From positions 2,130,386 through 2,194,385 of the forward strand of contig NZ_KV917376.1 in assembly GCF_002019695.1 (NCBI RefSeq): DNA of 64,000 nucleotides, read 5' to 3'. The first letter of the stretch is position 1; each line of letters begins with the position of its first letter. Positions 20,072 to 20,966 of the stretch are shown one piece after another. The translations under genes and the position numbers were made by a program. The notes under the pieces were generated by a model. The model did no database searches. It had not been told where the DNA came from and worked only from the letters and a program-made list of their open reading frames with translations. The DNA is from Evansella clarkii (GTDB lineage: Bacteria; Bacillota; Bacilli; Bacillales; Salisediminibacteriaceae).

Positions 20072-20102
20072 GCGGGTGTAGTTTAGTGGTAAAACCTCAG
20101 CC
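20072..20102 (+). pseudogene. Duplicated 5' half of tRNA-Gly, truncated by repeat R3
   Basis: These 31 bases are identical to the first 31 bases of the intact tRNA-Gly at 20227-20257. They stop inside the anticodon arm, where the R3 element begins with ACGAGC. It cannot form a tRNA. It lies within the tRNA transcription unit, so a tRNA-half/element RNA would be made. Confidence 0.92.
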
Positions 20103-20182
20103 ACGAGCAAAGCATCTATGAAACGGCAGCGAGTTGTCTCGACGGATATACTTCTAAGCATTAACTTGCAGAGGAAGAGACA
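20103..20182 (+). repeat. Structured repeat R3, copy A (tRNA-Gly)
   Basis: 80 bases from ACGAGC (20103) to GAGACA (20177-20182). TGTCTC starts 32 bases after the left end and can pair with GAGACA. The same spacing and ends occur at 20747, 31332 (minus) and 41411. About 44 bases of unrelated sequence follow before the intact tRNA-Gly. Confidence 0.85.
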
Positions 20183-20226
20183 TGTCAGAGCGGGACAAGC
20201 AATTGAAGTCTAATTTATATAATAAT

Positions 20227-20300
20227 GCGGGTGTAGTTTAGTGGTAAAACCTCAGCCTTCCAAGCTGATGTCGTGAGTTCGATTCTCATCACCCGCTCCA
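20227..20300 (+). tRNA. tRNA-Gly (UCC)
   Basis: Intact 74-base tRNA, anticodon loop CTTCCAA, CCA encoded. Its 5' half is duplicated at 20072-20102. Confidence 0.96.
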
Positions 20301-20339
20301 CTATTTTCAACCACATATTGAATACTTAATATATATAGT

Positions 20340-20416
20340 GGGCCTGTAGCTCAGCTGGTTAGAGCGCACGCCTGATAAGCGTGAGGTCGGTGGTTCGAGT
20401 CCACTCAGGCCCACCA
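20340..20416 (+). tRNA. tRNA-Ile (GAU)
   Basis: Anticodon loop CTGATAA; CCA encoded. Confidence 0.97.
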
Positions 20417-20423
20417 TAGTTAT

Positions 20424-20499
20424 TCCACAGTAGCTCAGTTGGTAGAGCAATCGGCTGTTAACCGATCGGTCGCAGGTTCGAGTCCTGCCTGTGGAGCCA
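20424..20499 (+). tRNA. tRNA-Asn (GUU)
   Basis: Anticodon loop CTGTTAA; CCA encoded. Confidence 0.97.
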
Positions 20500-20503
20500 T
20501 TAT

Positions 20504-20594
20504 GGAGAAGTACTCAAGTGGCTGAAGAGGCGCCCCTGCTAAGGGTGTAGGTCGCGTAAGCGGCGCGAGGGTTCAAATCCCTCCTTCTCCGCCA
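20504..20594 (+). tRNA. tRNA-Ser (GCU)
   Basis: 91 bases, class II long variable arm, anticodon loop CTGCTAA; CCA encoded. Confidence 0.97.
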
Positions 20595-20613
20595 GTTAAT
20601 ATACTTTTTGATT

Positions 20614-20688
20614 GGCCCGTTGGTCAAGTGGTTAAGACACCGCCCTTTCACGGCGGTAACACGGGTTCGAATCCCGTACGGGTCACCA
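20614..20688 (+). tRNA. tRNA-Glu (UUC)
   Basis: Anticodon loop CTTTCAC; CCA encoded. Confidence 0.97.
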
Positions 20689-20725
20689 TTTATATTTTAT
20701 TAGTTTCCTATATAGATTGTATTTA

Positions 20726-20746
20726 CTGCGAGCCATTAGCTCAGTT
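20726..20746 (+). pseudogene. Duplicated 5' end of tRNA-Lys, truncated by repeat R3
   Basis: Twenty-one bases are identical to 20887-20907, which includes the first 17 bases of the intact tRNA-Lys. Upstream similarity is weaker, extending about 10 bases. The copy breaks in the D-loop directly at the ACGAGC end of R3. Confidence 0.88.
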
Positions 20747-20826
20747 ACGAGCGTTTACTACACGCCAATGCATCGAGTTGTTTCGACGCATGAACTACAT
20801 AGCAATGCTCGGAAGAGGAAGAAACA
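20747..20826 (+). repeat. Structured repeat R3, copy B (tRNA-Lys)
   Basis: 80 bases. ACGAGC at 20747, TGTTTC at 20779 (32 bases on), GAAACA at 20821-20826. The TGTTTC/GAAACA stem replaces the TGTCTC/GAGACA stem of copy A, a compensatory change. A further 60 bases follow, including CGTCCGTAAGCT, which is shared with copy C. Confidence 0.85.
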
Positions 20827-20890
20827 GGTAAGACAGCGGAGCGAAGCATCGTCCGTAAGCTACATGAAAAAACATCATTGAATATGCTGC

Positions 20891-20966
20891 GAGCCATTAG
20901 CTCAGTTGGTAGAGCATCTGACTTTTAATCAGAGGGTCGAAGGTTCGAGTCCTTCATGGCTCACCA
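20891..20966 (+). tRNA. tRNA-Lys (UUU)
   Basis: Intact 76-base tRNA, anticodon loop CTTTTAA, CCA encoded. Last tRNA of the array. Confidence 0.97.

Follow-up and report, generated by a model that had tools for sequence, protein, structure and literature searches.

An 80-nt two-hairpin unit interrupts extra 5' parts of tRNA genes in Evansella clarkii and its relatives

What is the small element at which a truncated copy of a tRNA's 5' part breaks off, shortly ahead of an intact gene for the same tRNA? Three such arrangements lie in a 64,000-nt stretch of the Evansella clarkii genome (hereafter the window: the whole stretch of DNA analysed, positions 2,130,386 to 2,194,385 of contig NZ_KV917376.1). 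tRNA genes are well-known landing sites, and the elements on record at them measure kilobases and mostly use the 3' end. The locus raises the question of whether a small RNA enters tRNA transcripts and is written back to the genome, or whether a tRNA-maturation switch is at work. A reading made from the sequence alone had placed the same element inside tRNA 5' copies at Gly, Lys and Ala, with the intact tRNA following, and had proposed that a 21-32 bp duplication preserves the tRNA. The positions were confirmed, with the tRNAs identified by ARAGORN (Table 1).

Within the window, the motif ACGAGC-N{10,40}-CGAGTTGTYTCGAC has three matches and none in 100 shuffles. The exact direct copies measure 31 bp (Gly), 21 bp (Lys) and 32 bp (Ala), and the Ala duplicate reaches upstream of the tRNA as well (41379-41410, 32 bp exact). 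From unit to intact tRNA we count 44 nt (Gly), 64 nt (Lys) and 60 nt (Ala); of the 44-60 bases given by the sequence-only reading, 44 and 60 stand, and the Lys spacing is really 64. The same reading had ACGAGC start exactly where the tRNA copy breaks off. The break does not fall exactly there, as the tRNA sequence resumes after the unit: 1 nt at Gly (T), 4 nt at Lys (GGTA) and 4 nt at Ala (GGGA). A further unit, on the minus strand and away from tRNAs, carries nested copies of a 33-nt repeat, AAAACTCTTTTTGCGACGAGTAACCGCAGGAGC, in the loop of its second hairpin. The repeat occupies this loop, singly or in tandem, also at L009, L010, L012 and L015, one small repeat nested in another.

Table 1. 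Units and associated tRNA features in the window
Feature	Coordinates	Strand	Remarks
tRNA-Gly(UCC) 5' copy, nt 1-31, break in anticodon loop	20072..20102	+	identical to 20227-20257
Two-hairpin unit (80 nt) at tRNA-Gly	20103..20182	+	CM match G000:C1:2150488-2150567, E 4.5e-19
Tail, unit to intact tRNA-Gly; first T = tRNA U33	20183..20226	+	
Intact tRNA-Gly(UCC)	20227..20300	+	ARAGORN
tRNA-Lys 5' copy, nt 1-17, break in D-loop	20730..20746	+	identical to 20891-20907
Two-hairpin unit (80 nt) at tRNA-Lys	20747..20826	+	CM match G000:C1:2151132-2151211, E 2.3e-18
Lys tail: GGTA (tRNA nt 18-21), then motif with CATCGTCCGTAA	20827..20890	+	
Intact tRNA-Lys(UUU)	20891..20966	+	ARAGORN
Dispersed-class unit, not tRNA-linked	31188..31332	-	CM match G000:C1:2161618-2161717
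tRNA-Ala(GGC) 5' copy, nt 1-17	41394..41410	+	
Two-hairpin unit (79 nt) at tRNA-Ala	41411..41489	+	CM match G000:C1:2171796-2171874, E 9.6e-20
Ala tail: GGGA (tRNA nt 18-21), CGTCCGTAA motif, upstream part of duplicate	41490..41549	+	
Intact tRNA-Ala(GGC)	41550..41625	+	ARAGORN

The two-hairpin unit is 79-80 nt long and non-coding, with the consensus A[CAG]GAGC...GARACA. Across 185 distinct units from the pooled loci, it starts with A[CAG]GAGC, has CGA[GTC]TTGTYYC in the middle and ends with GAGGAAGRRACA. Nucleotides 1-32 and 33-79 form two hairpins, and because their helices abut, the fold brings both ends of the unit together. The pairing of TGTYTC with GARACA, proposed by the sequence-only reading, is a real helix (33-38/74-79) that covaries in the alignments: among the 185 units, pair 36-76 is CG in 119 and TA in 63, pair 37-75 is TA in 164 and CG in 16, and pair 35-77 is TA in 173 and CG in 8. 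Helix 1-2/31-32 covaries too (pair 2-31: CG 148, AT 25, GC 7), and it is followed by a constant G.A at 3/30, A.G at 4/29 and G-C at 5/28, where we predict tandem G-A pairs at 3/30 and 4/29. These two helices hold all the covarying pairs, and none of the pairs joins the two ends of the unit; the ends, ACGAGC... and ...GARACA, are not inverted copies of each other, and no terminal inverted repeats were found.

An alignment of 87 distinct sequences from relatives' loci, which was fitted to a model with the second helix only and is biased towards that helix, has 99.5% of 782 cells paired and a covariation of 0.204 versus 0.093 when shuffled (0 of 500 shuffles reach 0.204); every slid version of the fold scores lower. 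The description of the element as small and structured thus holds, as a two-hairpin fold with strong compensatory changes. A candidate pseudoknot, 25-28/65-68, proved weak, and we make no claim for it: pair 27-66 is formed in 98 of 185 units versus a shuffled mean of 72 and maximum of 88, and 26-67 in 115 of 185, which is not above shuffled. Rfam gave no match to the unit in the whole window at gathering scores. At relaxed E-values, the best non-tRNA match over part of the unit in window positions 20050-20900 had E 1.1, L181 (900-1690) gave none at E≤1, and L258 (1430-1640) gave none.

How common is the unit in its host, and how often does it lie at a tRNA? A covariance model built from 19 host copies returned 123 matches at E≤10, at least 117 of them at E≤2.7e-6, a count that is possibly a floor, with 150 of 1856 candidates scored. 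Removing three matches with E above 2 leaves 120 typed units, set against 107 chromosomal tRNAs of 108. Thirteen of the 120 lie no more than 300 bp upstream of a tRNA, all on the tRNA's strand, versus 0.17 expected; the excess next to tRNA genes that the sequence-only reading had named as a check is there. No other nearest arrangement of unit and tRNA within 1.5 kb occurs among the 120. Twelve of the 13 sit in tRNA halves (Gly, Lys, Ala, fMet, Arg), and the thirteenth (1166312, E 0.07) is a weak, partial class-b repeat. Direct copies of at least 10 bp flank only 11 of the 120 units, all of them tRNA copies and variable in length, which tells against the 21-32 bp duplication as a general target-site duplication. 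The twelfth unit in a tRNA half, which has no such copies, is the inner member of a nested pair.

About 105 host copies lie away from tRNAs. Among the flanks listed, many of these fall within a few dispersed repeat families, and the unit has several contexts within this one genome. In the class-b repeat, TTCCCGC[AC][AG]GA|GTC, seven empty copies read straight into GTC; occupied copies carry the unit exactly at that junction, followed by GTC. Comparison of empty with occupied copies indicates insertion without duplication or loss in dispersed repeats. For a fixed target tetranucleotide at one end, as in IS200/IS605-derived elements, the left flanks of units were compared by inspection rather than formal test; those listed vary (AGTT, AGCT, AGCC, AGCA, AAGA, AGCG and others). 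A generic target-site duplication is ruled out for the dispersed copies, duplications of at least 10 bp being found only at tRNAs. At tRNAs, the copy usually resumes for 1-6 nt past the unit, which gives a target-site duplication no support either.

At tRNAs, an extra tRNA 5' part comes first, then the unit in sense orientation and a tail, and last the same tRNA in intact form. We assembled 105 distinct unit-tRNA records, which include repeats from one genome and arrays. They come from 121 distinct units that are followed by a tRNA at a distance of 15-160 nt; the remaining 16 have no recognised half, several of them being inner members of nested pairs or falling outside the pattern's register. 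In the 105 records, the left copy runs from tRNA nt 1 to an end point specific to the tRNA: nt 31 in Gly (20/20), nt 14 in fMet (16/16), nt 17 in Val (8/9) and Ala(UGC) (15/16), and in Lys nt 17 (20/28), nt 16 (3) or nt 12 (5). By our own reading of the tRNAs, these points fall in the D-loop of Lys, Ala, Val, Arg, fMet, Asp and Phe, in the anticodon loop of Gly, and at nt 26 in Phe L258 and Met L259; the D-stem exceptions are five Lys records at nt 12 and two Met records at nt 11. The insertion point is thus fixed for each tRNA and, on this reading, lies mostly in a loop. Past the unit, the tRNA match extends for 0 nt in nine records, 1 nt in 23 (20 of them Gly), 2 nt in eight, 3-6 nt in 62 and 8-10 nt in three. 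In species with GGCAGA in their tRNA-Lys, this sequence comes after the unit. The remainder of the interrupted tRNA is always missing shortly after the unit; no unit was seen within an otherwise complete tRNA gene.

The distance from unit to intact tRNA is also constrained. It is 33-35 nt in Val (9/9), 44-50 nt in fMet with the left copy ending at nt 14 (16/16) and 63-67 nt in 21 of 28 Lys records, the others being four outer units of nested pairs and exceptions at 16, 28 and 52 nt. Ala(UGC) is bimodal, with 31-35 nt in eight and 61-64 nt in eight, and Gly is loose (32-69 nt). The motif CATCGTCCGTAA recurs in many Lys, Ala, Arg and fMet tails across genera. Tight spacing in Val, fMet and most Lys, together with a tail motif shared across genera, suggests function. 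At elongator tRNA-Met, the tails of L261 and L278 (both from G010) each hold a small hairpin, ACCAGT...ACTGGT / ATTGGT. Upstream of tRNA nt 1, the direct copies continue for at least 4 nt in 49 of 84 single loci, versus about 2% by chance when flanks of different tRNAs are paired, although shared leader motifs could mimic such extension. This reach makes it less likely that the duplicate derives from a mature 5' tRNA fragment.

Is the half conserved more than its surroundings? The 84 single loci were taken as those where the preceding 200 nt hold no recognised unit, with a few array members still among them, and halves with many mismatches were removed before counting. In 33 of them, the 16-mers upstream of the two copies are similar but decayed, with 144 mismatches in 528 positions versus 3 in 592 in the adjacent half; some similarities at 9 of 16 may be chance, and a recount at the stricter 12 of 16 or more gives 49/288 upstream versus 1/292 in the half. 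Twelve loci with perfect upstream sequence have 0/191 mismatches in the half, and 39 with unrelated upstream sequence have 17/844. The half is thus far better conserved than adjacent duplicated sequence, which hints at function; selection or gene conversion may be responsible. A spent target-site duplication would not keep the half in this state. Mismatches are denser in nt 1-7 (15/735) than in the rest of the half (8/1267).

Empty sites, a second check named by the sequence-only reading, exist in both paralogous and orthologous form. The host tRNA-Lys at 519424 directly follows tRNA-Thr and 'gtaa' without a unit. In the congener G400, with the same order of Thr, 'gtaa', Lys, Leu and Arg, tRNA-Lys nt 1-17, a unit and a 64-nt tail precede the intact tRNA. 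Halves without a unit are essentially absent. We searched 100 genomes for Lys/Ala 5' halves that end in CAGYT and lack a following G, a pattern blind to partial copies with G as the next base. Of the 39 matches, spread over 15 genomes, 38 continue with A, which is the first base of the unit; the pattern reversed matches four times. Every opened locus of these 38 has the unit. Within the reach of this pattern, the idea that older tRNA halves exist without it was rejected, as the sole exception, continuing with T, has neither unit nor tRNA. Near-identical modules also form arrays: four at Lys (G396), four at Ala (G405), ten at Val (G397), and in G398 five and three to four at fMet and three at Lys. 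Such arrays would be made and unmade by unequal recombination between the repeated tRNA parts.

The arrangement extends well beyond E. clarkii. Among 397 genomes of the order (135 genera), the junction pattern AGCTCAGNTANGAGC...TTGTYYC was matched 33 times, in 17 genomes and 9 genera, and its reverse not at all; at the readable loci the same tRNA follows in an intact copy, and the exact direct copies span 10-46 bp. A similar pattern run over 84,980 named genomes found 29 stretches. The 14 species that carry them, mainly alkaliphiles, are members of Evansella, Litchfieldia, Salipaludibacillus, Texcoconibacillus, Halalkalibacter, Alkalihalobacterium, Alkalihalobacillus and Anaerobacillus, together with Bacillus suaedae. 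With stricter filters and 47 candidates scored per genome, 54 of 100 relatives, representing 30 of the 63 genera sampled, have the unit itself at E≤1e-6. Twenty genomes from 14 genera have 1-3 units each (35 units, 30 loci fetched), and here 27 of the 30 fetched units are followed by a tRNA: 25 clearly, L277, and L275, where an fMet half has a masked run before the next tRNA. These low-copy genomes add Phe, elongator Met and Asp to the tRNAs concerned. The three units not near a tRNA (L279, L268, L287) are from host-family genomes; beside the intact tRNA of L264, L273 and L283, the left copy has decayed or cannot be recognised.

Unit identity within a genus is 0.761 for the same tRNA and 0.704 for different tRNAs; between genera it is 0.677 and 0.671, near-equal values that leave the history of individual insertions unreadable far back and give no signal of an ancient tRNA-specific lineage. 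A phage carrier was considered and set aside: the pattern matches two viral contigs, one without the unit's 3' half, the other with a unit-like sequence (L289, position 198, an IMG/VR contig classed as viral) that is not near a tRNA.

Several known systems resemble parts of this arrangement. The cyanobacterial 'very small mobile repeated elements' form hairpins and nest in other repeats and in RNA genes; our unit is about three times longer, with a defined two-hairpin fold and a duplicated tRNA half. The rtT repeats at E. coli tyrT are tandem modules of about 175 bp by a tRNA, each with a piece of that tRNA, namely its 3' end, downstream. The modules here, in contrast, hold the 5' part, stand upstream, have a two-hairpin unit inside and occur at many tRNAs in many genera. 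A copy-number difference in rtT RNA is noted in Salmonella (PMC2658671). Integrating elements of about 9-23 kb, with 44-bp repeats at PYG1, leave a partial and a complete tRNA copy (PMC9897764). Unlike such islands and prophages, the inserts here are about 0.1-0.2 kb and hold no gene, hence no integrase gene, use the 5' part instead of the usual 3' part, and interrupt the tRNA by the unit itself. The unit also differs from a MITE or classical DNA transposon in having neither terminal inverted repeats nor a target-site duplication of set length. It shares with IS200/IS605-derived elements its subterminal hairpins and, in dispersed repeats, insertion without duplication. The mitochondrial repetitive or double-hairpin elements of Allomyces and sponges are short, non-coding, built of one or two hairpins and inserted without flanking duplication, also in RNA genes; the lack of duplications led to the suggestion of an RNA intermediate in Allomyces (PMC2800124). 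Our unit is likewise short and folds into hairpins. It lacks a duplication in dispersed repeats (seven empty copies) and has one at tRNAs, and it differs in being bacterial, with conserved sequence blocks, a duplicated tRNA 5' part and arrays. No description of this element turned up among the papers listed from the mainly open-access literature searched.

We tentatively prefer, at somewhat short of even chances, a non-autonomous double-hairpin mobile element carried along with a tRNA piece by recombination between tRNA loci. An enzyme supplied in trans would put the unit into the loops and hairpin edges of folded single strands, whether of RNA or of DNA, and a disrupted tRNA would last only in partial form, with an intact gene next to it. 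The tRNA 5' part, unit and tail would then spread as one module among loci of the same tRNA by recombination across tRNA-identical segments, which is our favoured route for most local spreading, and the same recombination would grow modules into arrays. For a mobile element speak the fold, duplication-free insertion, several host contexts, presence and absence, the arrays, and halves tied to the unit. Against it stands that no unit was seen interrupting an otherwise complete tRNA gene. Also against it are the conservation of the half, as if selected or converted, and the tight spacing and shared tail motif, which suggest function. The conserved half and the spacing lead to the reading we rank second, unlikely yet a serious contender: a cis-acting RNA device in tRNA leaders. 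Half, unit and spaced tail would be transcribed with the tRNA, the upstream 5' part would compete with the gene's own for the 3' part, and the unit would decide which is used, whether as a maturation switch or as an insertion into the D- or anticodon loop that resembles an intron. Such a device fits a half conserved relative to adjacent duplicated sequence, halves that follow their own species' tRNA (CAGCT/GGCAGA in G405 Lys, ACAGCC in several Gly copies), a fixed position with near-fixed spacing, always sense and upstream, and the tRNA linkage of 27 of 30 fetched units across the 20 low-copy genomes and 14 genera. It fits poorly with about 105 host copies away from tRNAs, presence that varies between congeners and a set of tRNAs that varies between genera, mismatches commoner in nt 1-7 despite the need to form an acceptor stem, the decayed left copies of L264, L273 and L283, and the lack of tRNA-specific lineages across genera (0.677 versus 0.671).

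Mobility and a leader function are compatible, as a mobile cassette could have been put to use. A fuller version, in which a loop-interrupted extra 5' part competes for the 3' part in a tRNA switch or intron-like device and the unit is a mobile cassette loadable into the loops of many tRNAs, we find more doubtful. The model of the sequence-only reading, in which a transposon-like element makes a staggered cut in the tRNA gene and a variable target-site duplication restores it, has a poor chance. Its fixed 5' junction, its orthologous empty site and the upstream reach of the direct copies (49 of 84 loci versus about 2% by chance) would suit such a cut, but shared leader motifs can mimic that reach, other host units and the occupied/empty pairs are free of duplication, and the tRNA resumes after the unit, matching for at least 1 nt in 96 of the 105 records and at least 3 nt in 65. 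Highly improbable is a minimal integrative element: unit, tail and tRNA 5' part would form a small circle that recombines at the tRNA 5' part in the manner of a prophage att site, with arrays as repeated integrations. Modules are bounded by tRNA 5' identity and are repeated in tandem, nearly identical, up to a single intact tRNA, as such integration would leave them; however, the unit is common to all tRNA types whereas each type has its own half and would need its own circle, the identity is as short as 11-17 bp, and dispersed copies have no tRNA part.

The arrangement also matters for annotation, where a partial tRNA copy standing before an intact one can distort the count of tRNAs. A few loci are more elaborate. 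L216 (G404, 106-1154) has three successive tRNA-fMet genes, each after unit modules, in what looks like tandem triplication of the whole block. In L202 (G042, near 1516-1642), the intact gene behind a tRNA-Ala 5' half and a unit is one for tRNA-fMet; half and tRNA do not match, which suggests recombination. Nested pairs occur at L186, L197, L189 and host 881013-881176, with a unit of the AGGAGC/CGAC type at tRNA-Lys nt 12 and a gap to the second unit of 5 nt (L186, L197, host) or about 10 nt (L189), and at L195 two units stand back to back.
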